From NCBI GenBank assembly GCA_016870775.1, contig VGAK01000012.1:1-56665 (forward strand): a stretch of DNA of 56,665 nucleotides, written 5' to 3'. Origin of the DNA: Actinomycetota bacterium. Its GTDB lineage: Bacteria > Actinomycetota > Acidimicrobiia > Acidimicrobiales > Ilumatobacteraceae. A program made the translations under genes and the position numbers. Below, in pieces: positions 3,681-16,523 of the stretch. Every line of letters starts with the position of its first letter. Within the stretch, counting starts at the first letter, position 1. The notes below the pieces were generated by a model. The model saw only the letters and a list, made by a program, of their open reading frames with translations. It had not been told where the DNA came from and made no database searches.

Positions 3681-5078
3681 ATGACCAGCCCGTCGGCCTG
3701 GCCGAACTCCCTCTGGCTCTCGGGCCGCACCGTCGGGACGCATCGTGCGGTCTCACCCGACGATGGAGCCGATGTCATCATCGTCGGTGCGGGTTTCACC
3801 GGACTGTGGACCGCGCTCCACCTCAGGAGACTGGCACCGACCCTGTCGATCATGGTCCTCGACGCCGCGCAACCCGGCTTCGGAGCGAGTGGGCGGAACG
3901 GCGGATGGTGCAGCGCGATGGCACCGATGTCGCTCGACAGCCTCGCCGAGACGGCGTCACCTGCAGCCGCCGTGGCGTTCCAGAGGGCTCTCATCGACAC
4001 CGTGTCTGCGATAGGTGACTTCACCGCCGCACACGGGATCGACTGCGGATGGACACACGCCGGGACACTCTCGCTCGCCAGGACCGGCCCGCAGGTGGAA
4101 CGCCTCCGCTCGAGCATCGCAGAGGCACGCCGGCACGGTTTCGGGGAAGAGTTCCTCCGCATGCTCCCGTCCAACGAGGTTGACGAACACCTTCGGGTGC
4201 CGGGAGTTCGTTGCGCCACCCACAGCCCGGCGTGCGCGACCGTGGATCCCCTCGCCCTCGTGCTCGGCATCTCTGCGGTGGCGTGCGAGGCAGGGGTGGC
4301 CGTGCGCGGAGACTCGCGCCTCCTCTCGCACCGACGGGAGCGCGGCGGCAATGTCGTGAGGCTCGCCGTTCCGGGCGGTGAGGTCGAGACGAGGTGCGAC
4401 TGGCTCCTGCTGTGCACCGAGGGCTTCACCGCGCGACTGGCCGGCCACCGACGCCGGATCGCACCGTTGCACTCCTACATGGTTGCGACCGAGCCGCTCC
4501 CCGATTCCGTGTGGCAACGGATCGGCTGGGATTCCCGCGAGACGATCGCCGATGCGAGGAGGCTCGTCATCTACGCGCAGCGGACGCGCGACGGTCGCAT
4601 CGCCTTCGGTGGACGCGGTGCCTACCGCTGGGCGAGCAGGGTCGGCCCGCAGCACGACACGGACCCGACGGTCCACGATCGCATCGTGTCGACGATGTTC
4701 GAGATGTTTCCCGCGGCCCGTGGCGCCGAGGTGACGCACCGATGGGGAGGAGTGCTCGGGGTCACCCGGGACTGGCACGCCACCGCACGCGTGGATCGCG
4801 CGACCCGCACCGGCTTCGCCGGTGGTTACGTGGGCGACGGAGTGGCGCTGTCGCATCTGGTGGCTGCGGGGTTCGCACGAGCCATGCTGGGTGTCGACGA
4901 CGAGATCTCGCGGCTGCCCTTTGTCGGGCACCAGGTGTCCGACTGGGAACCCGAGCCGTTCCGCTGGCTCGGCATCAACGGCATGATCCGCGCCGTCGCC
5001 CTTGCTGATCGCATCGAGGCACGCACGGACCGGCCAGCGAGGCGCCTCGGCTCGTTGATCGAGCGGTTCATCGGCTGA
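3681..5078 (+). CDS. FAD-dependent amine/amino-acid oxidase (DAO family)
   Basis: 465 residues. The Rossmann motif 'VIIVGAGFTGLWTALHLRR' is near residues 33-51. 'GFGASGRNGGW' follows, the signature of DAO-family enzymes related to gamma-glutamylputrescine oxidase and N-methyl amino acid oxidases. The C-terminal 'GYVGDGVALSHLVA' closes the FAD site. Such enzymes oxidise a C-N bond with O2 or another acceptor, giving an aldehyde or keto acid. The substrate is unresolved; with a ProA-like dehydrogenase and an aminotransferase nearby, an amine or amino acid is likely (inference). No Shine-Dalgarno or TANNNT box is seen before ATG 3681, so the start is less certain. It is convergent with the dehydrogenase. 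Confidence 0.88.
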   Translation: MTSPSAWPNSLWLSGRTVGTHRAVSPDDGADVIIVGAGFTGLWTALHLRRLAPTLSIMVLDAAQPGFGASGRNGGWCSAMAPMSLDSLAETASPAAAVAFQRALIDTVSAIGDFTAAHGIDCGWTHAGTLSLARTGPQVERLRSSIAEARRHGFGEEFLRMLPSNEVDEHLRVPGVRCATHSPACATVDPLALVLGISAVACEAGVAVRGDSRLLSHRRERGGNVVRLAVPGGEVETRCDWLLLCTEGFTARLAGHRRRIAPLHSYMVATEPLPDSVWQRIGWDSRETIADARRLVIYAQRTRDGRIAFGGRGAYRWASRVGPQHDTDPTVHDRIVSTMFEMFPAARGAEVTHRWGGVLGVTRDWHATARVDRATRTGFAGGYVGDGVALSHLVAAGFARAMLGVDDEISRLPFVGHQVSDWEPEPFRWLGINGMIRAVALADRIEARTDRPARRLGSLIERFIG

Positions 5079-5108
5079 ACGGCGGGCGCGAGCGGAGTCT
5101 GGCGCGCC

Positions 5109-6593
5109 TCAGCGGTGGAGGAAAGGATCCGTCTGTCGCACCCTCAGACGCACCGAGTAGGCCGAGTCACCCGAGAGAATCCCGCCCCGCGCAAAGAGCC
5201 GACCGTTCTGCCAGTTGGACAGCCCGAGTTCCGGACGCAGCAACGCGAACTGGCCGTCCACCCACCGGGTGAAGCCGTCACCCACGAAGGGGGCATCGAG
5301 GCGGCGCCAGGCTGCGAGGAACGTCTCCTCGTTCTCGGTGATGACGCTCGCAATGAACCTCGGACTGTGCGCCGCGAACAATTCGAGGGCCTCTTCGAGC
5401 GAGTCCACGAGAACAACCGAGAGTTCCGGATTCTCCTCCCACTCGTGCTCGATGGCGAGGTCTCCCACGTCGCACACCGTCACGGCGGGCTCCAGCGCCA
5501 CCCCATCGGCGCGTCGCACGTGGATCTCGTCCGGGTCGCCGAGCACACCCACAGCGTCCCCCACTGCATGGAAACGGGCGCGCACGCCGCGGGACGCCGA
5601 AGCGCGATCGGCGGCCGCACGCACCAGTGGCCCCCACTTCACCGCGCGCGTGCGTGGGAGGCAGACGACATTTGCGGTGTTGCACACCTTCCGGTCCAGA
5701 CTGTGTTCGATCACCGCCGACAGACGCACCTCGTCGGCATCGTCTGCCACGATCATCCAGGCGCCACCAGTGCCGTGGAGGCTCACCGCCGTTCCGGCTT
5801 GGCGCGCGATGGAACCGAGCTCGGCCACCGCGGGTCCGGACCCACGCGCGACCGCCAGTGACAGGCGCGAATCTGCGAAGAGGGCCCAGCCCGCAGCGTG
5901 CTCGGGGGACTCGACGAGCACCACCGCCCCCTCGGGTAGTCCGGACAGTCGCAGAGCCGGGCGCACCACCGACTCCATCACCGCGACAGCCGTGGCGAGT
6001 GCGTCACTTCCGATGCGCAACACGACGCAGTTCCCGCCCTTCAGCACGCCCGTGGCATCGGCGAACACGTTGGGTCGCCCCTCGAAGACGAACCCCACCA
6101 CACCGAGAGGGGCGCGCCACTGCTCGACGGTCCAACCGTCGTGGGAGATCGTGAACTCCGCTGACTCGGGGACCGGGAGGTCACGCCACATCCGCAACGA
6201 GGACACCATGTCCTCCCGCATCCGCCCCGTCAGTTCGAGCCGGGTCGTGGAGCGTCCCCTCGCCCTCGCCGAGGCGACATCGGCACTGTTCGCCCGGAGC
6301 ACTGGTGCGCACACCTCGTCATCGGCCAACCGCTCGGCAGCGATCCCGAAGAAGCGCTCGATGGCCTGCGGTCCCGCATCACCGAGCCTGGCAAAAGCAT
6401 CAGTGGCTGCGGTCACGGCATCGGCCACCAATCGTGCCGTCGCCGACGGAATCCGTCGCAGTTGTCCCGTCGCCGCGACACCGATCAGCCGATCACCCGG
6501 GGAGAACTCGGCCGCGAGCGCCTCATCGACGACCACAATGTGGTCACCAACAAGGACCCTGTCCCCGGCCCGGAGCCCCTCTGGTGCAACCAC
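5109..6593 (-). CDS. ProA-like aldehyde dehydrogenase superfamily protein
   Basis: 494 residues from GTG 6593 (in-frame GTG/TTG codons up to 6632 are possible). The middle and C-terminal parts resemble gamma-glutamyl phosphate reductase: 'RAPLGVVGFVFEGRPNVF', 'GVLKGGNCVVLR', a Cys-containing 'KVCNTANVVCLP' at the catalytic-thiol position, and 'GDGFTRWVDGQFALL' near the end. It differs from true ProA in having some 75 extra N-terminal residues and in replacing the 'PRGG' region with 'ARGSG'. It may use NADP(H) on an aldehyde or acyl-phosphate substrate; proline synthesis is not established, since no proB is here. Its start lies back to back with the MBL-fold gene. Confidence 0.78.
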   Translation of the reverse strand: MVAPEGLRAGDRVLVGDHIVVVDEALAAEFSPGDRLIGVAATGQLRRIPSATARLVADAVTAATDAFARLGDAGPQAIERFFGIAAERLADDEVCAPVLRANSADVASARARGRSTTRLELTGRMREDMVSSLRMWRDLPVPESAEFTISHDGWTVEQWRAPLGVVGFVFEGRPNVFADATGVLKGGNCVVLRIGSDALATAVAVMESVVRPALRLSGLPEGAVVLVESPEHAAGWALFADSRLSLAVARGSGPAVAELGSIARQAGTAVSLHGTGGAWMIVADDADEVRLSAVIEHSLDRKVCNTANVVCLPRTRAVKWGPLVRAAADRASASRGVRARFHAVGDAVGVLGDPDEIHVRRADGVALEPAVTVCDVGDLAIEHEWEENPELSVVLVDSLEEALELFAAHSPRFIASVITENEETFLAAWRRLDAPFVGDGFTRWVDGQFALLRPELGLSNWQNGRLFARGGILSGDSAYSVRLRVRQTDPFLHR

Positions 6594-6599
6594 GACCTC

Positions 6600-6606
6600 T
6601 ATTGTG
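6600..6606. promoter_or_regulatory. Overlapping divergent -10 boxes (bidirectional promoter)
   Basis: The 7-bp stretch reads TATTGT on the plus strand (6600-6605), ending 7 nt before GTG 6613. It reads CACAAT on the minus strand (6606-6601), ending 7 nt before GTG 6593. Both spacers fit leaderless transcripts, and neither gene has a Shine-Dalgarno site. The whole gap between the two start codons is only 19 bp. Confidence 0.45.
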
Positions 6607-6612
6607 CGTCGT

Positions 6613-7338
6613 GTGGACACGCACGACACCAACCGCTTCTACTTCCGCCAGTTGCTCGGCGGACGGGACTTCGCCGCCAGCGACATGGTCGCCCGCCAAA
6701 TGGTGAATTTCGCCTATCTCGTGGGCGACCGGGCCACGGGCGAGTGCCTGATGGTCGATCCCGCCTATGCAGTCGGCGACCTGCTCGCGATCGCCGAGGC
6801 CGACGGGATGCGCGTGACCGGGGTGCTCGCCAGCCACTACCACCCCGATCATGTGGGTGGCTCGATGATGGGCCACACGATCGAGGGCGTCGCCACACTG
6901 CTCGAGAAGTGCCCCGTGCCGATCCACGTGAACAAGCACGAGGTTCCCTGGGTCGTGCGCACCACGGGAGTGAGTGACACCGACCTCGTCGCCCACGACG
7001 CCGGTGATGTGATCACCGTCGGCGACCTCGAAATCTCGTGTCTCCACACACCCGGACACACCCCCGGGAGTCAATGCTTCTTTGCCAACGGGTGCCTCTT
7101 CTCCGGCGACACGTTGTTCCTCGAAGGATGCGGCCGGACCGACCTGCCGGGGTCCGACCCCGCGGACATGTGGGAGAGCCTGTCGCTGCTCGCGGGACTA
7201 CCAGATGACACGATCGTGTTCCCCGGCCACCAGTACAGCGCGCCCCCGGCCGCGCACCTGGGGGAGATCAAGGAGATCAACTACGTCTTCAAACCGCGCA
7301 ATCGTGAGGCGTGGCTCACCATGTTCGGCCACGACTGA
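6613..7338 (+). CDS. Metallo-beta-lactamase-fold hydrolase (glyoxalase II / ETHE1-like)
   Basis: 241 residues. The zinc motif 'SHYHPDHVGG' (HxHxDH), a second His in 'TPGHTPGSQCF', an Asp in 'SGDTLF' and a final His in 'FPGHQYS' give the full two-metal ligand set. Size and the C-terminal 'GHQYS' fit hydroxyacylglutathione-hydrolase or persulfide-dioxygenase-like proteins acting on thioesters or sulfur species; the substrate is not determined. The start at GTG 6613 is supported by TATTGT 7 nt upstream. A downstream TauE/SafE family gene on the opposite strand is often sulfur-related, which makes a sulfur role possible (inference). Confidence 0.88.
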   Translation: MDTHDTNRFYFRQLLGGRDFAASDMVARQMVNFAYLVGDRATGECLMVDPAYAVGDLLAIAEADGMRVTGVLASHYHPDHVGGSMMGHTIEGVATLLEKCPVPIHVNKHEVPWVVRTTGVSDTDLVAHDAGDVITVGDLEISCLHTPGHTPGSQCFFANGCLFSGDTLFLEGCGRTDLPGSDPADMWESLSLLAGLPDDTIVFPGHQYSAPPAAHLGEIKEINYVFKPRNREAWLTMFGHD

Positions 7339-7368: not shown

Positions 7369-8133
7369 TCATGGTGCAAACGACGCGACGATCGCACTCA
7401 CTCCCGCCAGCATCAGGAGAGCCAGCACCAGCCGTCTGAAGCGCTGACCCGCCACGTGCGGTCGCGCCGCATACCCGAGGCGAACCGCCGCGAACATCGA
7501 TGGAAGCGCGACAGCTGCCCCCACCAGACCATCACCGTTCACCTTGCCCGCCCCGACGAAGAACGCGAGCGCACCGATGTTCGACAGGGCAAAGACCGTG
7601 TTGATCGTTGCCCGGAACGTGTCCGGCGCCATCGCCCTCGCCTGCAGTGCGAGCACGAGCGGCGGGCCGTTCGTCGAAGTTGAGGTGGCGAGCACTCCGC
7701 TGACCGCCCCCATCGCCCAGTCCAATCGATCCGGGGGTGCCTCGAGACGCGACCCGCGCGCCAGCATCGCCGTGGCCACGAGGACGGCAATCCCCACCAA
7801 CAGGCGCAACGTGTCCGCCGACACCACGAGGAACAGAACCGACCCGATCGGCATGCCGAGGAACGCTGCCGTCGCCAACCGCGCCGACACGTCCCGCGCC
7901 ACATGGCGCCGATCGGTCCATGCCTGCACGGTCGTGGAGACCGCGCCCACCATCGTGGCCACCACCACCGCCACGTGGGGCTCGAGAACCACTGTCATCA
8001 GGGGCACGGCGATGAGTGCGAACCCGAACCCCGAGAGACTCTGAGCGAACGCTGCGAGCGCCACACAGACCACGACCCAGGCGAGATCGGGGTACAACCC
8101 GAGAGCCGCCAAGACTGCCAGATCGAACGACAA
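7369..8133 (-). CDS. TauE/SafE family anion exporter
   Basis: 254 residues, mostly hydrophobic, with about eight predicted membrane helices in two similar halves. The N-terminal 'FAQSLSGFGFALIAVPL' is the TauE/SafE repeat signature. Family members export sulfite, sulfoacetate or related organic anions. The start is a TTG at 8133, 12 nt after the aminotransferase stop on the same strand, so the two are probably one transcript. Export of an anionic breakdown product of the neighbouring catabolic genes would fit (inference). Confidence 0.85.
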   Translation of the reverse strand: MSFDLAVLAALGLYPDLAWVVVCVALAAFAQSLSGFGFALIAVPLMTVVLEPHVAVVVATMVGAVSTTVQAWTDRRHVARDVSARLATAAFLGMPIGSVLFLVVSADTLRLLVGIAVLVATAMLARGSRLEAPPDRLDWAMGAVSGVLATSTSTNGPPLVLALQARAMAPDTFRATINTVFALSNIGALAFFVGAGKVNGDGLVGAAVALPSMFAAVRLGYAARPHVAGQRFRRLVLALLMLAGVSAIVASFAP

Positions 8134-8145
8134 CGGGGCGCGGAC

Positions 8146-9537
8146 CTAACCGACGAGGGACGCGACCGCGCCGGCAAAGATCTCGGTGTGTCTGTCGACG
8201 TCCGACCGGTCGTGGAACGGTGACATCAGGGCCATGTTGTGGAACGGAGTGAGCAGGATCCCACGGTTGAGCGCGAACAAGTGCATGTACGCGTCCAGTT
8301 CGTGATCGATTGCTGCCGCCGCCATCGCCCCGTCGCGCGGGGGCGGACAGAACCAGTACTCGGCCCGGCAACCGAGCCTCTGCACGTGCCAGGCGAGTCC
8401 ATGCGCCTCGTACCCCGCGCGCACGCCGGCAGTCCACGCCTCGGCGAGTGGCTCCATGCGTGCGAAATCGTCCTCTCGCAGCCTCGAGGACAGGGTCGCC
8501 CTCATCGCAGCGAGTGCCAGTGCGTTGCCTGCCAGCGTCCCACCAACCCCGGAGACATCGACTGCATCACCGGCCAGTGCATCCTCCAGACGCTCCGCGA
8601 CATCTCCGCTCATCCCGTAGGCGGCCGCGGGCATTCCCCCACCGATCGGTTTGCCGATGACGAGGAAGTCGGGCTCGAGGCCCCATGCGCGCGTGCAACC
8701 GCCGGGCCCGGCACAGATCGTGTGGGTCTCGTCGATGACGAGGAGCACTCCGTGCCGCCGGGTGACCTCGCGCACCGCATCGAGGTACCCCGGATCGGGC
8801 AGCACGATGCCGATGTTGGTCAGGGCGGGCTCCATCAGCAGACACGCCACATCGCCGTGTGCGAGCGCCTCGTCGAGCGCGACGGGATCGTTGAACGGCA
8901 CCACCCTGGTCGTTGAGGCGGGATCGAACCCCGGCCCGATCGCGCCGGGTCTGCTCACCGCCCTCCCGTCGTCACCGCGGATCGCCAAGGTTTCGTCGAC
9001 GGTCCCGTGGTAGCACCAATCGATCACGCAGATCTTCGGGCGTCCGGTGAGGTGCCGGGCGAACCGGAGCACGAAACGGTTCGCGTCGGTGGCCGTCATC
9101 GCGAACTGCCACGTCGGGAGGCCGAATCGCCTGCCGAGTTCCTCGGCCACCCAGATCGCATCCTCGTTCGGGAGCATCGTCGTGACACCTCGCAGCGCGC
9201 GCGAGTGCAGTGCCTCGGCCACGTCCGGAAGGGCATGGCCGGTCATCGCGCCGGTGTCCCCGAGACAAAAATCGACGTACTCAATACCGTCCACGTCGGT
9301 GAACCGACCGCCCGTCGCCTCGGCCACGAAGACGGGGAAGGCGCCGGGCCATCTGGTCATCCACGGCATGGGCACTCCCGACAGAAGCGGACCCCGGGCC
9401 GACTCTGCCAAACCACGAGAGATCGGGTGGTTTCGCACGAAAAGATCGAGTTCGCGGGTGCGAAGGTCGGAGAGGCGCTGGCGATCCATGGAAACCGTGC
9501 CGAACGGCGCCCGAAGCGTAGGCGCGCCTCGGCCCAT
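8146..9537 (-). CDS. Class III PLP aminotransferase, glutamate-1-semialdehyde aminomutase-like
   Basis: 463 residues. The PLP-binding region includes 'VIDETHTIC' and the Schiff-base lysine in 'LVIGKPIGGGMPAAAYG'. The GSA-type N-terminus 'GGRFTDVDGIEYVDFCLGD' is present. It is probably not HemL, because the neighbours are catabolic and no haem genes are seen; a transaminase for an omega- or beta-amino acid is more likely (inference). ATG 9537 was chosen because AGAGGAA stands about 8 nt before it, while a later ATG at 9489 has none. It is divergent from the M20/D-carbamoylase/molybdenum-hydroxylase operon, 69 bp away, and continues into the TauE gene. Confidence 0.88.
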   Translation of the reverse strand: MGRGAPTLRAPFGTVSMDRQRLSDLRTRELDLFVRNHPISRGLAESARGPLLSGVPMPWMTRWPGAFPVFVAEATGGRFTDVDGIEYVDFCLGDTGAMTGHALPDVAEALHSRALRGVTTMLPNEDAIWVAEELGRRFGLPTWQFAMTATDANRFVLRFARHLTGRPKICVIDWCYHGTVDETLAIRGDDGRAVSRPGAIGPGFDPASTTRVVPFNDPVALDEALAHGDVACLLMEPALTNIGIVLPDPGYLDAVREVTRRHGVLLVIDETHTICAGPGGCTRAWGLEPDFLVIGKPIGGGMPAAAYGMSGDVAERLEDALAGDAVDVSGVGGTLAGNALALAAMRATLSSRLREDDFARMEPLAEAWTAGVRAGYEAHGLAWHVQRLGCRAEYWFCPPPRDGAMAAAAIDHELDAYMHLFALNRGILLTPFHNMALMSPFHDRSDVDRHTEIFAGAVASLVG

Positions 9538-9594
9538 GATCGGATTCCTCTGCCGCGCGACCGAAGAACACCTCCGTTTATCCTTTACATTTCG

Positions 9595-9600
9595 TACACT
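9595..9600 (+). promoter_or_regulatory. Putative -10 box TACACT for the heterocycle operon
   Basis: TACACT ends 6 nt before GTG 9607, predicting a leaderless operon mRNA. It lies in a locally AT-rich patch (9577-9600) of an otherwise GC-rich 69-bp divergent region. The tetramer TACA occurs at 9586 and 9595. The aminotransferase promoter must share this region. Confidence 0.4.
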
Positions 9601-9606
9601 TGGCGC

Positions 9607-10899
9607 GTGCCCCGCACAACCAACGCACCCATCGTCTCGGTCGACGGCGATCGTCTCATGGCCTCGTTGATGAACCTTGCCCGCATCGGCGAGATCGACG
9701 GAGGCGGGTGCGCCCGACTGGCACTGACGGAGGAGGACCGGGCCGGTCGCGACCTCGTGCTGGGCTGGATGCACGAACTCGGGCTCGAGGTCACAGTCGA
9801 CGTCATCGGCAACGTGATCGGCACATGGAACGTCGGAGTTGGGGCCCCAGTGATGACCGGGTCCCACATCGACACCGTGCGCACGGGCGGCAAATACGAC
9901 GGCAACCTCGGCGTTCTCGCGGGACTCGAGGTGATCCGGACCTGCCAACAGGCGGGCCTCGTTCCAACGCGGCCGCTCGCAGTCGCCTTCTTCACCAACG
10001 AGGAGGGTTCCCGATTCGCACCGGACATGATGGGGTCGCTGGTGTACGCCGGCGGGATGAGCACCGAGACCGCCCTCGATGTCGTCGGGATCGACGGTGC
10101 GAGGGTCGGAGACGAACTCGAGCGCATCGGGTACAACGGTGCATCGCCGTGCCCCGGGATCGCTCCCCACGCCTTCGTCGAACTCCACATCGAGCAGGGC
10201 CCGGTCCTCGAGCAGGAGGGCATCACGATCGGGGCGGTGACCGGCGTCCAGGGCATCAGCTGGCGCGAGCTCGTGCTGAGGGGTCAGTCAAACCACGCGG
10301 GGACAACACCGATGTCGTTGAGACGCGATCCGGGCTATGTCGCGGCGGAGGTCACGGCCTTCTTGCGACGGCTCGCCCGCGAGATGGGCGGGCACCAGGT
10401 CTGCACCGTGGGTCGGGTCGAGTTCCATCCGAACCTCGTCAACGTGGTCCCAGCGAGCGTGGCGATGACGCTCGACGTGCGCAACACCGACGAGGCACTC
10501 CTCGTGGCGGCCGAAAACGCAATCACCGCCGAAGTCGAGCGTCTCTGTGCCGCCGAACACGTGGAGGCCTCGTGGAGGCGACTCACTCGCTTTGAGCCGG
10601 TGGTCTTTGACCGCGCGGTGATCGATCTGGTGGCCGGTGTCGCGCGCGAGCAGGGCCATTCGGTGATGGAACTGCCCTCCGGGGCGGGACACGACGCCCA
10701 GATGATCGCACGTATGTGTCCGACAGCGATGATCTTCGTGCAGAGTCACCGCGGAATCAGCCACAATCCAGCCGAGCACACCGACCGCGACGATCTCATC
10801 GCCGGGGCCGACGTGTTGCTGCACGTGATGCTCCGGCTCGCCGGCCTCGATCCGTCGGGCAACAGAGCATCCGGCGACAGTGACGGGACGACTCGATGA
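9607..10899 (+). CDS. M20-family N-carbamoyl-amino-acid hydrolase / allantoate amidohydrolase
   Basis: 430 residues. The metallopeptidase M20 fold is shown by 'TGSHIDTV', 'KYDGNLGVLAG', 'TNEEGSRF' and 'HIEQGPVLE', the di-metal ligands of allantoate amidohydrolase, beta-ureidopropionase and L-carbamoylase (HyuC). A late 'SGAGHDAQMIA' supplies the last His. Members remove a ureido (carbamoyl) group as CO2 and NH3, freeing an amine or amino acid. Which ureide is used cannot be told. It is the first gene of a six-gene operon; its stop overlaps the next ATG by 4 nt. The GTG start is backed by TACACT 6 nt upstream. Confidence 0.92.
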   Translation: MPRTTNAPIVSVDGDRLMASLMNLARIGEIDGGGCARLALTEEDRAGRDLVLGWMHELGLEVTVDVIGNVIGTWNVGVGAPVMTGSHIDTVRTGGKYDGNLGVLAGLEVIRTCQQAGLVPTRPLAVAFFTNEEGSRFAPDMMGSLVYAGGMSTETALDVVGIDGARVGDELERIGYNGASPCPGIAPHAFVELHIEQGPVLEQEGITIGAVTGVQGISWRELVLRGQSNHAGTTPMSLRRDPGYVAAEVTAFLRRLAREMGGHQVCTVGRVEFHPNLVNVVPASVAMTLDVRNTDEALLVAAENAITAEVERLCAAEHVEASWRRLTRFEPVVFDRAVIDLVAGVAREQGHSVMELPSGAGHDAQMIARMCPTAMIFVQSHRGISHNPAEHTDRDDLIAGADVLLHVMLRLAGLDPSGNRASGDSDGTTR

Positions 10900-11828
10900 C
10901 ACGAATCGTCACGGTGGGTGCGGCCCAGATGGGTCCGGTCCAGCGCGACCATTCGCGCACCGATGCCGTCACTCGCATGCTCCATCTGATGCGCGAGGCT
11001 GCCTCGAGGCGCTGCGACCTCGTGGTGTTCCCCGAACTGGCGCTCACCACCTTCTTCCCGCGCTGGTTCGTCGAGGACATCCGTCAAGCCGACCATTGGT
11101 ACGAGGTCCAGATGCCCTCGCCGGAGACCGCGCCACTGTTCGATGAATCAGCGCGCCTCGGGATCGGGTTCTGCCTCGGGTTCGCAGAACTGACTCCCGA
11201 CGGACACCGGTTCAACACCCAGGTGCTCGTCGACAAGACCGGGCGAGAGATCGCGCGTTACCGGAAGGTCCACATTCCCGGTCACGAGAACCATGAGCCC
11301 GACCGACCGTTCCAGCACGCCGAGCGCCACTATTTCCAGCCCTCGATGGACGGCTTCGGTGTGTGGAACGCCTTCGGTGGGCGGGTGGGAATGATGATCT
11401 GCAACGACCGTCGCTGGCCGGAGTCGTACAGGGTGATGGGTCTGCAGGGAGTCGAGATGATCCTGTGCGGCTACAACACGCCGATCCACTACGTGCCCGA
11501 TCCGAGCCAGGACATCCTGCAGGGCTTCCACAATGCGCTCGTGATGCAATCTGGTGCCTACCAGAACGGCACGTGGGTCGTGGGGGTCGCAAAGGGTGGC
11601 GTCGAGGAGGGCGTCGACAGCCTCGCCCAGTCGATGATCGTGGCGCCCTCGGGCCAGATCGTGGCCCAGGCCCTCACCACCGACGACGAGTTGATCACCG
11701 CCTCGTGCGACCTCGACTGGTGCGGGCGGTACACCGGCACGCTCTTCGACTTCGACCGCTACAGGCGCCCAGAGATGTACGGGATCATCGCCAGCCAGCG
11801 TGGCGTGACCCATCCCGACGGGGAGTAG
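10896..11828 (+). CDS. N-carbamoyl-D-amino acid hydrolase-like nitrilase
   Basis: 310 residues of the nitrilase superfamily, close in motif to Agrobacterium D-carbamoylase. The triad is intact: Glu47 in 'VVFPELALTTFFPRW', Lys124 in 'RYRKVHIPGH' and Cys169 in 'MMICNDRRWPE', each within about three residues of the reference enzyme. It should hydrolyse an N-carbamoyl amine to the free amine, CO2 and NH3. The length matches the family (about 304). It overlaps the upstream M20 hydrolase by ATGA, so two unrelated ureido-hydrolases are translated together. They may act on opposite enantiomers or on successive carbamoyl compounds (inference). Confidence 0.92.
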   Translation: MTRIVTVGAAQMGPVQRDHSRTDAVTRMLHLMREAASRRCDLVVFPELALTTFFPRWFVEDIRQADHWYEVQMPSPETAPLFDESARLGIGFCLGFAELTPDGHRFNTQVLVDKTGREIARYRKVHIPGHENHEPDRPFQHAERHYFQPSMDGFGVWNAFGGRVGMMICNDRRWPESYRVMGLQGVEMILCGYNTPIHYVPDPSQDILQGFHNALVMQSGAYQNGTWVVGVAKGGVEEGVDSLAQSMIVAPSGQIVAQALTTDDELITASCDLDWCGRYTGTLFDFDRYRRPEMYGIIASQRGVTHPDGE

Positions 11829-11834
11829 GTCCCC

Positions 11835-12893
11835 GTGCGAGAGACCAACGGGCTGGTGTGCGCGCACCACCACCTGTATTCGACACTGGCCCGCGGGATG
11901 CCCGCTCCCCCGCGGACTCCGACATCGTTCATCGAGGTCCTCCAGCAGGTCTGGTGGCGCCTCGACGACGCCCTCGACCTCGACCTGATCCACTGGTCGG
12001 CCGCACTCGGAGCCGCCGAAGCGCTCCTGGCGGGCACCACCGCGGTGATCGACCATCACGAATCCCCCTCTGCGATCGAGGGATCCCTCGACGCGGTCAC
12101 GACGGCCTGCGACATGGTGGGGATCCGGTGCATCCCGTCCTATGGCGTGACTGATCGCTGGGCAGCCGGGGGAATCACGAGCCGCGTCGATCCGACCACT
12201 CCGATGACCGAGGGCGCCCGCAGGGGACTCGCCGAGAACGAGCGGTTCCTCGCCTCGGGTCGTCGGGCGATGGTCGGGGTGCACGCATCCTTCACGTGCG
12301 GGGACGAGACCCTCGCAGCAGCCGCCGATCTTGCTGCCAGGTACGGCACGGGCGTTCACATCCATGTCGCCGAGGGTCCCGACGACGCGCATGCGCACGT
12401 GCGACTCGCACCTCTCGCGCGCCCGGACTGGCTGCTCGTCCACGCGGTGCACCTGGTCTCGAACCTGCCGGGCACGATCGTGCACAATCCCCGCTCCAAC
12501 ATGAACAATGCCGTGGGGTACGCCCGGCCCGCGGCGAGGCAGAACCGGGTCGTCCTCGGAACCGACGGCATCGGGGCCGACATGCTCGACGAGGCGCGAC
12601 TGGCCTATGCGCGCCACCGCGAGGACGACCTCTCCGCGACACCCGAGACGGCGTGGTCGTGGCTCTCGAACGGCGAGGATCTCGTGCCCGAGGTGCGCAA
12701 CGACCGTGTGGTCTGGAACTACGACCACCTCGAGAGTCCCTGGCATCTCGCATTCACTCCCGGAGTGCGTCCCCTCGAGGTCTGGGTGGATGGCACGCAA
12801 CTCATCGCCGAGGGTCGGCCACTTCATTTCGATCTGGAGGAGGTGCGTGCCAAATCCGCGGAGGCAGCGACGCGCCTCCATGCGAGGCTCTAG
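11835..12893 (+). CDS. Minimal SsnA-like amidohydrolase
   Basis: 352 residues. The body follows E. coli SsnA closely: 'GLVCAHHHLYSTLARGM' (metal HxH at 11/13), 'VWWRLDDALD', 'GTTAVIDHHESPS', 'VHIHVAEGPDD', 'NPRSNMNNAVGYA' and 'LGTDGIGADM'. SsnA and guanine-deaminase-type enzymes hydrolyse amino or cyclic amide groups on N-heterocycles. Here the first about 57 residues, half of the usual beta-sandwich, are absent: a stop lies in frame just upstream at 11826-11828, so no longer start exists. The C-terminal half of that domain is also short, lacking the usual 'G-x-x-ADL' segment. It sits 6 nt after the D-carbamoylase gene and 26 nt before the FAD subunit. Confidence 0.85.
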   Translation: MRETNGLVCAHHHLYSTLARGMPAPPRTPTSFIEVLQQVWWRLDDALDLDLIHWSAALGAAEALLAGTTAVIDHHESPSAIEGSLDAVTTACDMVGIRCIPSYGVTDRWAAGGITSRVDPTTPMTEGARRGLAENERFLASGRRAMVGVHASFTCGDETLAAAADLAARYGTGVHIHVAEGPDDAHAHVRLAPLARPDWLLVHAVHLVSNLPGTIVHNPRSNMNNAVGYARPAARQNRVVLGTDGIGADMLDEARLAYARHREDDLSATPETAWSWLSNGEDLVPEVRNDRVVWNYDHLESPWHLAFTPGVRPLEVWVDGTQLIAEGRPLHFDLEEVRAKSAEAATRLHARL

Positions 12894-12919
12894 CCCATGC
12901 GAGGCCCCGGGAGGACACC

Positions 12920-13753
12920 ATGCCCGTCTTGATTCCCCGATCACTGGACGTCGCCGTGGAGATGGCGTCGTCGCACCCCGACGCCCACATCCTCGCCGGT
13001 GGGACCGACCTCATGGTGGAGGTCAACTTCAACCACCGCAAGCCCGAGACCGTGCTGGCTCTCCGGCACGTGGACGAGTTGCGTGGATGGACGATCGATG
13101 CAGCGACGCGCACCGTGCACATCGGCTCGGCGGTTCCGTTCTCGGAGATGGAGCACGGCGCCCTCTCAGAGGCACTCCCCGCACTCGCCGAGGCGGCACG
13201 CACCGTCGGCTCACCCCAGATCCGCGCCGCCGGCACCATCGGAGGAAACCTCGGAACCTGCTCGCCAGCTGGCGACTCGCTCCCGGTGCTCGCCGCCATG
13301 GAGGCCACGGTCCATCTCCGCTCCACGAGCGGGGAGCGCGCTATGCCTTTCGCCGAGTTCATGACCGGCCCGAAACGCAACGCGCGCAGGGGTGACGAGA
13401 TCATCACCGGTGTCTCGATGCCGATCGCCGACGGATGGCAGGGCTACGCCAAGGTCGGGGTGCGCAATGCCATGGTGATCTCGGTCGCCTCTGCGTGCCT
13501 CGCGCTCCAGTCGACCGGGCCCCGGCTCGCGCTCGGCTCCGTGGGACCGGTGATCATCCGGTGCCACGACGCCGAAGCACTCGTGGCGGACCGTCCCGGT
13601 GCGGTCGATGCCGCCCTTGCCGCCGAGTTCGGACGGCTCGCTGCTGCGGCGTCATCGCCGATCGACGATCACCGCTCCACCGCCGCCTACAGGCGCCATG
13701 CCGTGTCGGTCCTTGCGGGCCGCCTGCTCCAGAGAGGAACCGCACGCCCATGA
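12920..13753 (+). CDS. Molybdenum hydroxylase, FAD-binding subunit (XDH/CoxM type)
   Basis: 277 residues. The FAD motifs 'ILAGGTDLMVEV' and 'AAGTIGGNLGTCSPAGDSLP' are typical of the medium subunit of xanthine-dehydrogenase-family enzymes. It passes electrons from the 2Fe-2S subunit to NAD+ or another acceptor. ATG 12920 is preceded by GGGAGGA at a good distance. Its stop overlaps the next start (ATGA). The order FAD, FeS, Mo is the same as in coxMSL and in many XDH operons. Confidence 0.92.
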   Translation: MPVLIPRSLDVAVEMASSHPDAHILAGGTDLMVEVNFNHRKPETVLALRHVDELRGWTIDAATRTVHIGSAVPFSEMEHGALSEALPALAEAARTVGSPQIRAAGTIGGNLGTCSPAGDSLPVLAAMEATVHLRSTSGERAMPFAEFMTGPKRNARRGDEIITGVSMPIADGWQGYAKVGVRNAMVISVASACLALQSTGPRLALGSVGPVIIRCHDAEALVADRPGAVDAALAAEFGRLAAAASSPIDDHRSTAAYRRHAVSVLAGRLLQRGTARP

Positions 13754-14232
13754 ACGAGCACTACACACTGAGGGTGAACGGAGTCGAGCGCGACGTGTGC
13801 GACTCCTGGATCGGCGAGAGCCTGCTGTATGTGCTGCGTGAGCGACTCGACCTCCCGGGTGCAAAGGGTGCCTGCGAACAGGGCGAGTGCGGGTCGTGCA
13901 CCGTCTTCGTCGACGGTGCAGCCGTGTGCAGTTGCCTGGTGCTCGCGGCTTCAGCGGTCGATGCCGAGATCGCCACGGTCGAGGGCCTCAATCCGGACGG
14001 CACCCTCACCGATGTGCAGGAGGCGTTCGTTCGCGAGGGGGCCGTCCAGTGCGGATTCTGCACCCCGGGTCTCGTCATGGCGGTGCATCACCTCCTCGAT
14101 GCGGAGCCCGAGCCGAGCGATCTGCAGGTCAAGGAGGCCCTCTCGGGCAACATCTGCCGCTGCACCGGCTACGGCCGCATCTTCGCCGCGGTGGATGCAG
14201 TGATCGCCAGGCGCAGGGACGCAGCACGATGA
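13750..14232 (+). CDS. Molybdenum hydroxylase, 2Fe-2S subunit
   Basis: 160 residues. The plant-type ferredoxin cluster uses C42, C47, C50 and C62 ('GACEQGECGSC' then 'CSCL'). The second, helical cluster domain has C101/C104 ('CGFCTPGL') and C136/C138 ('NICRCTGY'). All eight cysteines are in place, so electron transfer from the Mo site to FAD should be intact. The length is normal for XdhC/CoxS-type small subunits. Both ends overlap neighbouring genes by 4 nt, pointing to coupled translation and equal stoichiometry. Confidence 0.94.
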   Translation: MNEHYTLRVNGVERDVCDSWIGESLLYVLRERLDLPGAKGACEQGECGSCTVFVDGAAVCSCLVLAASAVDAEIATVEGLNPDGTLTDVQEAFVREGAVQCGFCTPGLVMAVHHLLDAEPEPSDLQVKEALSGNICRCTGYGRIFAAVDAVIARRRDAAR

Positions 14233-16523
14233 GCCGGTCCACGATCGACACGGTGCGCACCGACGACCGGAGCGGGACGAGCCGCGAGGTTCTCGGAGCC
14301 AACGCGCTCAGACCCGATGGCGCAGCCAAGGTCAAGGGAGAGTTCGCCTTCTCCTCGGACATGTGGGCCCAGAACATGCTCTGGGGCGGCACCCTCCGCT
14401 CGCCGCATCCCCGCGCCCGCATCGTCTCGATAGATGTGTCGGCCGCGTGGAGAATCGCCGGTGTCGAGACCGTCGTGACCGCCGACGATGTCCCCGGTCA
14501 ACTGACCTACGGTTTGATCAGCGAGGACCAGCCCGTCTTTGCCCGTGGTGAGGTGCGCTACATGGGCGAACCCATCGCCGCTGTCGCCGCCGATCATCCC
14601 GAGACCTGCCGCCGCGCGCTCGCAGCCATCGCGGTCGAGTGGGAGGTCCTGCCGGCTCTCGTGGATCCCGAGACCGCGATAGCCGGAGGGTTCGACCCGA
14701 TCCATCCCGACGGCAACGTGATCCGTCACCAGCGCATCATCCGCGGTGACACATCGGCGACGGGTGCCATCGTTGTGGAGGGCACCTACGAGCTCGGCAT
14801 GCAGGACCAGGCATTCCTCGGCACCGAGGCCGCACTCGCCGTCCCCGACCACGACGGGGGCGGCGTCGAGGTCTACATCGCGACGCAATGGCTCCACGAG
14901 GACCGCAAGCAGATGGCCAAGTGCCTGGCTCTCCCCGAGGACAAGGTCCGTCTGGTCCTGGGTGGCGTCGGCGGCGCGTTCGGTGCGCGCGAGGACATCA
15001 GCCTGCAGGTTCACACTGCCCTGCTCGCACTGCGCACCGGCCGACCCGTGAAGATGCAGTACGGACGCGAGGAGAGCTTCTTCGGCCACGTCCACCGTCA
15101 CCCCGCGACGATCTGGATGCGCCACCACGCGACCGACTCGGGAGAGATCGTCAAGATCGAGGCCCGCTTCGTCTTCGACGGTGGCGCGTATGCCTCGACC
15201 TCCTCTGCCGTCCTCATCAACGGCGTGACCCACGCTCAGGGCCCCTATCGCTGCGACAACGCCGTGGTGGATGGTTGGGCGGTGCGCACGAACAACCCCC
15301 CGTGCGGGGCGATGCGCGGCTTCGGCGTGGTGCAGGCATGCTTCGCCCACGAGGGGCAGATGGACAAGATCGCCGCCGCGGCAGGACTCGACCCCGTCGA
15401 GGTGCGTCTTCGCAACGCCATGCGCACCGGTGACCGGCTCATCACCGGTCAGGTGGTGGAGAGCGTGGCGCCTGTGGAGCGTTGCATCCGCGAGACCGCG
15501 GCGCTCCCGATGCCCTCCCCGCTTCCCGACCGGCCCGACGCGCTGCTCATGCCCGGCGGATCGGGGCTCACCGCCGACCGGCACCACATCCGCCGCGGAG
15601 TCGGCTGGGGTGTGAGCATCAAGAACATCATGTACAGCGAGGGTTTCGACGACTTCTCCACCGCACGGTGCGTGCTCGCGGACGGCGTGGTCACACTCAA
15701 GTTCGCCACCAGCGAGGTGGGACAGGGGTTCGTGACCCTCGCCCCTCAGATCGCGCGGTCGGTCCTCGGTGTGGACGACGTGGTTCTCGACACGATCGAC
15801 ACCGGCGTCGGGTCGGCCGGCTCGACCTCGGCCTCGCGCCAGACATGGATGTCGGGCGGCGCCGTCGACGGCGCTTGCCGCCTGGTGAGGGAGAGACTCT
15901 TCGAACATGTCGGCCGGGCCCACGGGGTCGACCCCCTCCGGCTCGTGATCGAGGACACCGACGTCGTCGACTCGATGGGCTCGTTGCGCGTTCCCGTGGG
16001 CGAGGCCTCAGCCGGATTGCGCATCGATGAGACCTTCGAGCACCACCACCGCCCCACCGAGGAACTCGACGAGAACGGACAGGGCAATTGCCATGTGGCG
16101 TTCGCGTTCGTGGCCCACCGCGCCGTGGTCGACGTGGATCCCGAGCTCGGCCTCGTCAAGGTCGTCCAGGTGGCGACTGCCCAGGACGTCGGGAGGGCAC
16201 TCAATCCGCTCTCGGTGGTCGGACAGATCGAGGGAGGCATCGCCCAAGGTCTCGGCCTGGCCGTGATGGAGGAGATCATCGTCGACAACGGTCGGGTGCG
16301 GAACCCCTCGTTCACCGATTACCTGCTCCCCACTGCGCTGGACGCACCCGAGGTGATCGCGACACTGGTGGAGGAACATGAACCGCAGGCTCCACTCGGA
16401 GCCAAGGGTGTCGGAGAGCCGCCCTGCATCTCGGTGACTCCGGCAATCGTGGCTGCGATCCGCGATGCGATCGGCCGTGATCTCGCGCGAGTTCCCGTGC
16501 GTCCCCAGGACATCTGCTTCTGA
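14229..16523 (+). CDS. Molybdenum hydroxylase, molybdopterin-binding catalytic subunit (XDH family)
   Basis: 764 residues. Molybdopterin-contact motifs are 'GGVGGAFGAREDI' and 'CGAMRGFGVVQACF'. The catalytic Glu is in 'PLGAKGVGEPPCI' near the C-terminus. The enzyme would hydroxylate a carbon next to nitrogen in an N-heterocycle or an aldehyde. The CO-dehydrogenase active-site loop (AYxCSFR) is absent, so CoxL is excluded. The exact substrate is unknown; the ureido-hydrolase and amidohydrolase partners suggest purine-, pyrimidine- or hydantoin-like rings (inference). No maturation gene (xdhC/coxF type) is present in the window. It is the last gene of the operon, convergent with the next. Confidence 0.93.
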   Translation: MSRSTIDTVRTDDRSGTSREVLGANALRPDGAAKVKGEFAFSSDMWAQNMLWGGTLRSPHPRARIVSIDVSAAWRIAGVETVVTADDVPGQLTYGLISEDQPVFARGEVRYMGEPIAAVAADHPETCRRALAAIAVEWEVLPALVDPETAIAGGFDPIHPDGNVIRHQRIIRGDTSATGAIVVEGTYELGMQDQAFLGTEAALAVPDHDGGGVEVYIATQWLHEDRKQMAKCLALPEDKVRLVLGGVGGAFGAREDISLQVHTALLALRTGRPVKMQYGREESFFGHVHRHPATIWMRHHATDSGEIVKIEARFVFDGGAYASTSSAVLINGVTHAQGPYRCDNAVVDGWAVRTNNPPCGAMRGFGVVQACFAHEGQMDKIAAAAGLDPVEVRLRNAMRTGDRLITGQVVESVAPVERCIRETAALPMPSPLPDRPDALLMPGGSGLTADRHHIRRGVGWGVSIKNIMYSEGFDDFSTARCVLADGVVTLKFATSEVGQGFVTLAPQIARSVLGVDDVVLDTIDTGVGSAGSTSASRQTWMSGGAVDGACRLVRERLFEHVGRAHGVDPLRLVIEDTDVVDSMGSLRVPVGEASAGLRIDETFEHHHRPTEELDENGQGNCHVAFAFVAHRAVVDVDPELGLVKVVQVATAQDVGRALNPLSVVGQIEGGIAQGLGLAVMEEIIVDNGRVRNPSFTDYLLPTALDAPEVIATLVEEHEPQAPLGAKGVGEPPCISVTPAIVAAIRDAIGRDLARVPVRPQDICF

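Follow-up and report, generated by a model that had tools for sequence, protein, structure and literature searches.

A six-gene operon in Ilumatobacteraceae as a probable part of an F420-type reductive pathway for uric acid degradation

The closest described system is the reductive uric acid pathway of E. coli and C. difficile. Excerpts of Li et al. 2025 (PMC12507026) assign to it XdhD, which converts urate to yanthine, together with YgfK/UacX, SsnA, HyuA, YgeW/UacY, YgeY, and YgeX; they also refer to SsnA in Actinomycetota and note, for Chloroflexota, a putative luciferase-family enzyme dependent on F420. In the Percudani commentary (PMC12990295), the route is said to be confined to anaerobes, obligate or facultative, and an R configuration is noted as having been proposed for the ureido centre. 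A conserved E. coli/Enterococcus gene set is listed in an excerpt of PMC2276186. Purine catabolism in SAR11 is covered in excerpts of PMC11698098, where urate oxidase is listed, and PMC12636525. Among the literature matches listed, the pathway itself is the subject of PMC12507026 and PMC12990295 alone, and none is a paper on the reductive pathway in Ilumatobacteraceae, acIV, Acidimicrobiia, or Ilumatobacter. The present analysis concerns a six-gene operon in a 56,665-nucleotide (nt) contig of a member of the Ilumatobacteraceae (GCA_016870775.1, VGAK01000012.1), referred to as the window. Judged from its sequence, the operon quite probably encodes the xanthine dehydrogenase (XDH) together with the hydrolytic half of a reductive, F420-type pathway for uric acid (purine) degradation.

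The six genes share the plus strand and span positions 9607-16523, with open reading frames and boundaries read from the sequence:

9607-10899, plus strand, GTG start: M20 ureidohydrolase (hydantoinase/carbamoylase, allantoate-amidohydrolase-like)
10896-11828, plus strand, ATG start, ATGA overlap with the M20 gene: N-carbamoyl-D-amino-acid hydrolase (D-carbamoylase) of the nitrilase superfamily
11835-12893, plus strand, GTG start, 6-nt gap before: short SsnA-type amidohydrolase
12920-13753, plus strand, ATG start, 26-nt gap before: flavin adenine dinucleotide (FAD) subunit of a three-subunit XDH-type enzyme (PF00941, PF03450)
13750-14232, plus strand, ATG start, ATGA overlap: iron-sulfur (2Fe-2S) subunit of the same enzyme (PF01799, PF00111)
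14229-16523, plus strand, ATG start, ATGA overlap: molybdenum (Mo) subunit, PucD type (TIGR03196)

Three junctions are thus ATGA overlaps, and the gaps fall between the nitrilase and SsnA genes and between the SsnA and FAD genes. These boundaries bear out an earlier note made from the letters alone, which described six same-strand genes with ATGA overlaps or gaps of at most 26 nt, and family scans agree with the six families it predicted.

The window is contig C12 of a 1.74-Mb genome (G000) that is 80% complete, so single absences there are weak evidence; they are stronger across a panel of 38 SsnA-positive genomes, G000 included, of which 35 belong to the family. Further sets comprise 150 sampled family genomes, 296 phylum genomes, 80 named SsnA loci, and a smaller set of 20 loci. 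These sets were used to compute gene content, linkage, and conservation, to assign families, and to establish the split of the cluster and the absence of uricase.

The reductive enzymes are encoded on another contig of the same genome. An Fe-S/Mo fusion protein of the TIGR03311 type (C7:5322-7904) is 74% identical to the copy within the cluster of locus L066, and the adjacent F420-type reductase (C7:7933-8931) is 83% identical to its L066 counterpart. The fusion scores 830.9 bits against a TIGR03311 cut-off of 830.45. It is present at 69% identity or more in 37 of the 38 panel genomes, and the reductase in 33. The two genes are adjacent by coordinates in 11 of 12 panel members of the window's genus; the remaining one, G422 (80% complete), is without both. 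The window most likely represents the hydrolytic/XDH half of a split cluster, holding only that half because fusion and reductase sit on C7. A reading of the operon as a complete, self-contained route was rejected on the same ground, and with it the earlier picture of a linear route within six genes.

The best PDB relative of the reductase is the F420-dependent methylene-tetrahydromethanopterin reductase Mer (140 bits), and cofD is over its cut-off in 36 of the 38 panel genomes and partly matched in the remaining two. The best two plasmid hits of the fusion are enzymes of Enterococcus (L182, 41% identity) and Collinsella (L181, 39%), both located in ssnA/ygfK clusters; these stretches also carry diaminopropionate ammonia-lyase and YgeY, and that of Enterococcus adds a hydantoinase and ygeW. 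The fusion was rejected as an orthologue of E. coli XdhD, to which it is only 25% identical, with a gap at Glu606. The fusion probably works without labile selenium, since YqeB (TIGR03309) is over its cut-off in just one of the 38 genomes, with weak matches in 11 and none found in the 80%-complete G000; selD and yqeC were not searched. The sole YqeB over cut-off, on C26 of G311, lies about 7 kb from a second F420-type reductase (50% identity), and this may be a true selenium-type cluster. The life style of Ilumatobacter is aerobic. Slight support for such a life style in this host comes from a cytochrome P450 gene that lies about 3.4 kb away from the pair on C7.

The genes recur widely in relatives. 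SsnA (E 1e-40 or better) is found in 130 of 150 sampled family genomes and in 31 of 296 phylum genomes. Five of the 20 loci (L066, L069, L070, L074, and L078) share the order M20, D-carbamoylase, fusion, SsnA, F420-type reductase, FAD, 2Fe-2S, Mo, and the operons of the five loci from the window's genus (L067, L068, and L071-L073) no longer contain fusion or reductase. All eight genes occur together in 16 of the 80 named loci. The window-type set (carbamoylase, SsnA, FAD, and 2Fe-2S, with neither fusion nor reductase) is present in 12 of the 80. The gene set of the window is conserved and not a matter of chance. At least six named loci come from lakes by title: Baikal (L135, L148), Lanier (L128, L133), and Pavin (L114, L115).

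The F420-type reductase seems to be exchangeable with YgfK. The reductase is present in 58 of the 80 named loci and YgfK in four, none has both, and 18 have neither (Fisher p 0.005, a guide only, as the loci are related and short contigs and the 12 window-type loci are counted among the 18). These counts derive from bit-score filters; identity filters give 59 and 1 of 80. In the panel, YgfK is present at loci L061, L062, L080, and L096, from four of the five genomes without the reductase, YgfK having been sought at loci and not genome-wide. The YgfK-like protein of L062 (7445-9295, minus strand) corresponds mainly to the N-terminal region of TIGR03315, along with ferredoxin motifs (418 vs 835 bits) and may be missing part of E. 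coli YgfK.

A route can be proposed in which substrates, products, and step order are drawn from PMC12507026 and from homology. The PucD-type XDH would oxidise hypoxanthine and xanthine to urate (step 1), the C7 fusion would reduce urate to 2,8-dioxopurine (yanthine; step 2), and the adjacent F420-type reductase would dearomatise yanthine (step 3). The short SsnA would then open the pyrimidine ring of the reduced 8-oxopurine (step 4), and an unlinked dihydropyrimidinase-type hydantoinase on contig C15 may open the ureidomethyl-hydantoin to 2,3-diureidopropionate (step 5). The D-carbamoylase is predicted to take the 2-ureido group and the M20 enzyme, in the slot of YgeY, the 3-ureido group, giving 2,3-diaminopropionate (step 6); a D-specific carbamoylase would fit the R-configured ureido centre proposed per PMC12990295. 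Finally, some enzyme other than YgeX, possibly a divergently encoded transaminase, would feed 2,3-diaminopropionate into central metabolism (step 7). Steps 2, 5, and 7 are the weakest.

A few loci tie the gene set to purines. L151, titled Acidimicrobiaceae, holds the PucD-type XDH, SsnA, M20, D-carbamoylase, fusion, and reductase together with a hydantoinase (474 vs 393 bits), an adenosine deaminase (305 vs 217), a PF02133 cytosine/purine-family permease, and a YgeX that is 57% identical to that of G086 by tblastn. L180 has the XDH, adenosine deaminase, SsnA, M20, D-carbamoylase, fusion, and reductase, adding an 8-oxoguanine deaminase (638 vs 532 bits) and a YgeX (56% to that of G086, tblastn), and L172 has the XDH, an 8-oxoguanine deaminase, a hydantoinase, and the remaining genes, with no YgeX within the stretch. 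In G086, a single stretch joins YgeX (276 vs 274 bits) and a hydantoinase with the fusion, SsnA, the reductase, and a gene resembling carbamoyltransferases. YgeX also lies within the cluster in L166 (tblastn), as it does in L151 and L180, and a PnrA-like substrate-binding protein and permeases adjoin the cluster in L062. The catabolic route for an N-heterocycle envisaged in the earlier note is supported. Its view of the heterocycle as unassigned is not, for in relatives the genes of the operon are combined with those of reductive uric acid degradation, whose missing reductive steps are encoded on C7. A small Thiamine_BP and HTH_22 protein, encoded on the opposite strand between SsnA and M20 in L151 (11070-11699, minus) and L180 (10476-11093, minus), is a candidate regulator of the cluster.

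The hydrolytic enzymes of the window are assigned with differing sharpness. The M20 protein (PF01546, Peptidase_M20) scores 403.6 bits with TIGR01879 (cut-off 204) and 412.5 bits with NF006771, an allantoate amidohydrolase subfamily (cut-off 399); N-carbamoyl amino acid hydrolases and allantoate amidohydrolase are among its relatives in the PDB. Its NCBIfam hits do not include the YgeY model, of which the M20 of L069 shows only a trace (25 vs 321 bits). The nitrilase belongs to the CN_hydrolase family; its best PDB match, over residues 1-304 and thus full-length, is the N-carbamoyl-D-amino-acid hydrolase 8i99 (380 bits), and it keeps the CNDRRW catalytic Cys motif, so the label "D-carbamoylase-like" given earlier was correct. 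A D-carbamoylase lies near SsnA in 51 of the 80 named loci.

The SsnA-like protein belongs to the Amidohydro_1 family and has SsnA as its best NCBIfam match, with an alignment that begins only at about profile position 59. Residues H11, H13, H177, H203, and D244, presumably metal ligands, are invariant across 18 homologues. Throughout the 18 copies in the alignment, with G086, G057, and G263 among their sources, the protein begins some 8 to 16 codons ahead of the HHHLYS motif, with varying start codons. The N-terminal segment is present in SsnA of other Actinomycetota (L016, L022, L027), Collinsella, and Enterococcus. The description "minimal SsnA" in the earlier note thus stands, given the late start of the alignment and the recurrence of the short form in relatives. 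An AlphaFold2 model (predicted local distance difference test 92) has amidohydrolases and deaminases of 404-452 residues as its ten best PDB folds, with TM-scores of 0.77-0.83 by query and 0.63-0.69 by target; some C-terminal strands are still present, and the model fits a trimmed member of the amidohydrolase fold. A PDB sequence search with the short SsnA gave no match at 1e-8, and a plasmid search gave 24 records, every one below 60% identity. L159, a metagenome-assembled genome titled Thermoanaerobaculia, has a short SsnA 63% identical to that of the window with YgfK fragments downstream, by horizontal transfer or mis-binning. Near the main cluster of L173 and L177 lie a second SsnA-like gene that is only distantly related (27-28%) and a Mo subunit (30%).

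Of the XDH-type enzyme, the Mo subunit passes the PucD model TIGR03196 (845.2 vs 783.65 bits). In alignment, its E255, R363, and E730 coincide with bovine xanthine oxidase residues that are presumably substrate-binding and catalytic. The FAD subunit contains FAD_binding_5 and CO_deh_flav_C domains and the 2Fe-2S subunit Fer2 and Fer2_2; both score under the PucC and PucE cut-offs.

Two genes diverge from the operon:

8146-9600, minus strand: class III (glutamate-1-semialdehyde-aminomutase-like) transaminase (NF005453 PRK07046)
7369-8133, minus strand: TauE/SafE-family membrane protein, a possible transporter (PF01925)

The transaminase scores 640 bits with its model (cut-off 425), and 14 of the 80 named loci have a counterpart close to the cluster. 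It is a candidate for disposal of diaminopropionate, with an uncertain role. A TauE/SafE gene is near the cluster in 25 of the 80. An FAD oxidoreductase (DAO) and an aldehyde dehydrogenase, at 3681-6632 of the window, recur upstream in 15 and 20 of the 80 loci, respectively, and are possibly a separate amine-catabolic unit.

Several points weigh against reading the operon as part of a reductive urate pathway. That an aerobic cell would reduce urate is not obvious on thermodynamic grounds, and several enzyme assignments lie at or under family cut-offs: the short SsnA scores 223 and 217 bits against 444 and 455.5, half its cut-off, the fusion copies of L066 (812) and G086 (792) fall under the TIGR03311 cut-off of 830, and the ornithine-carbamoyltransferase-like gene of G086 is under all cut-offs. 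The fusion has a gap opposite Glu606 of XdhD and Glu and Arg where XdhD has Gln twice; since it is unlike E. coli XdhD, the case for urate reduction depends on its 41% identity to the enzyme of Enterococcus. The absence of a hydantoinase claimed in the earlier note holds for the operon and fails for the genome, where the C15 enzyme (466 bits, cut-off 393) is unlinked to the operon and nearer the family's non-cluster copies (52-56%) than the cluster-linked ones (43-45%). YgeX is not found in the 80%-complete G000 at E 1e-20 and is over its cut-off in none of the 35 family genomes and one of the 38 in the panel (G086, outside the family), with G301 reaching 215 vs 274 bits. The transaminase orthologue (over 50% identity) is patchy, occurring in just 17 of the 38 genomes, and its role as an obligatory replacement of YgeX is unsupported. 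Across the 20 loci, counted at the loci, D-carbamoylase occurs in 15, M20 in 12, and the PucD-type XDH in 10. In addition, the panel was picked for SsnA, and the 20 sampled family genomes without an SsnA match lie outside it.

The same genes could serve a pathway with another entry, in which the C7 enzyme acts oxidatively, forming 8-oxopurines or 2,8-dioxopurine from less oxidised purines, so that urate is never reduced and the F420 step alone is reductive. This is unlikely but deserves weight, as the Glu and Arg retained in the fusion match xanthine oxidase in the alignment, the Glu606 segment of XdhD is missing, and yqeB, without which a C. difficile mutant loses the benefit from uric acid (PMC11448449, in excerpt), is over cut-off in a single panel genome. 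However, the operon already has a dedicated PucD-type XDH, and the Enterococcus and Collinsella enzymes of ssnA/ygfK clusters also have this Glu and Arg. A route for some other N-heterocycle (a pyrimidine, a hydantoin, creatinine, or nicotinate), a kind of reading that the earlier note allowed, is very improbable. M20 and D-carbamoylase enzymes accept many N-carbamoyl compounds, a breadth that would accommodate such substrates, and the top PDB matches of the Mo subunit are nicotinate dehydrogenase and 4-hydroxybenzoyl-CoA reductase; yet adenosine deaminase, 8-oxoguanine deaminase, the cytosine/purine-family permease, and the PnrA-like transporter adjoin the cluster in some relatives, and YgeX and hydantoinase co-cluster with it in a few.

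Ordinary oxidative purine degradation, from urate through allantoin to allantoate with the M20 protein as allantoate amidohydrolase, has next to no probability. The M20 protein does pass the allantoate amidohydrolase subfamily cut-off, L180 encodes an allantoinase/dihydroorotase-like protein (under all cut-offs, 297 vs 358 for allantoinase), and G086 has an OHCU decarboxylase. Against this, uricase (PF01014) is found in none of the 38 panel genomes, PuuD- and HpxO-type urate oxidases not having been searched directly, OHCU decarboxylase (PF09349) occurs in one (G086, outside the family) and not in G000 or any family genome of the panel, and SsnA, D-carbamoylase, fusion, and reductase would be left unexplained. 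The oxidative pathway was rejected on the uricase and decarboxylase counts, which agree with the earlier note that this is not a standard oxidative purine locus. Uricase and allantoinase were not seen together beside homologues of the operon, the L180 protein being the sole allantoinase-like one.

On the preferred reading, that of a reductive urate pathway divided between the window and C7, the novelty lies mainly in the host and cofactor of a recently described pathway. A wider proposal, for which the balance is about even, is that free-living Ilumatobacteraceae and their kin, including small-genome lake lineages, have as a near-core trait a reductive urate pathway that is driven by F420 and free of selenium. 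Purine nitrogen would then be recovered in aerobic plankton by reduction and hydrolysis and not by uricase, with a YgfK-exchangeable reductase, a D-specific carbamoylase, a trimmed SsnA, and an exit other than YgeX. If this is true, the gut pathway would be one branch of an older environmental one. The frequency of SsnA among the sampled family genomes (130 of 150) and of the reductase in the panel (33 of 38) suggests an overlooked purine-nitrogen route outside the gut. Surveys keyed to the SsnA family models could miss it, since SsnA of both the window and L062 falls under their cut-offs.

Compared with known systems, the loci of this type resemble the reductive uric acid pathway of E. coli and C. 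difficile (excerpts of PMC12507026) in linking a putative SsnA-type ring opener with a dehydrogenase of the Mo/Fe-S type, a predicted dearomatising reductase, and a predicted pair of ureido-cleaving enzymes, to which a few loci add hydantoinase and YgeX, and in having no uricase. They differ in that an F420-type luciferase-family reductase mostly replaces YgfK/UacX, an unrelated D-carbamoylase and an allantoate-amidohydrolase-like M20 enzyme fill the slots of YgeW/UacY and YgeY, SsnA is without its N-terminal segment, and a PucD-type XDH lies inside the operon. YqeB is not found in G000, YgeX is not over cut-off in the 35 family genomes, and the cluster is split in the window's genus. Like the Chloroflexota variant in the excerpts of PMC12507026, the Ilumatobacteraceae loci have an F420-type PF00296 reductase beside SsnA, a likeness at the level of family only; that variant is from another phylum, and those excerpts do not describe the Actinomycetota form. 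The selenium-dependent xanthine dehydrogenase clusters of Collinsella and Enterococcus encode an enzyme from the family of the C7 fusion and also include ssnA and ygfK, but the Enterococcus stretch has selD, yqeB, and yqeC, whereas YqeB here is largely missing. The Mo subunit resembles that of the Bacillus PucABCDE xanthine dehydrogenase in passing the PucD model, while the partner subunits fall under the PucC/PucE cut-offs and the panel has no uricase. The reductive route has so far been worked out in anaerobic gut bacteria; here, it is apparently standard in a family of free-living actinobacteria.

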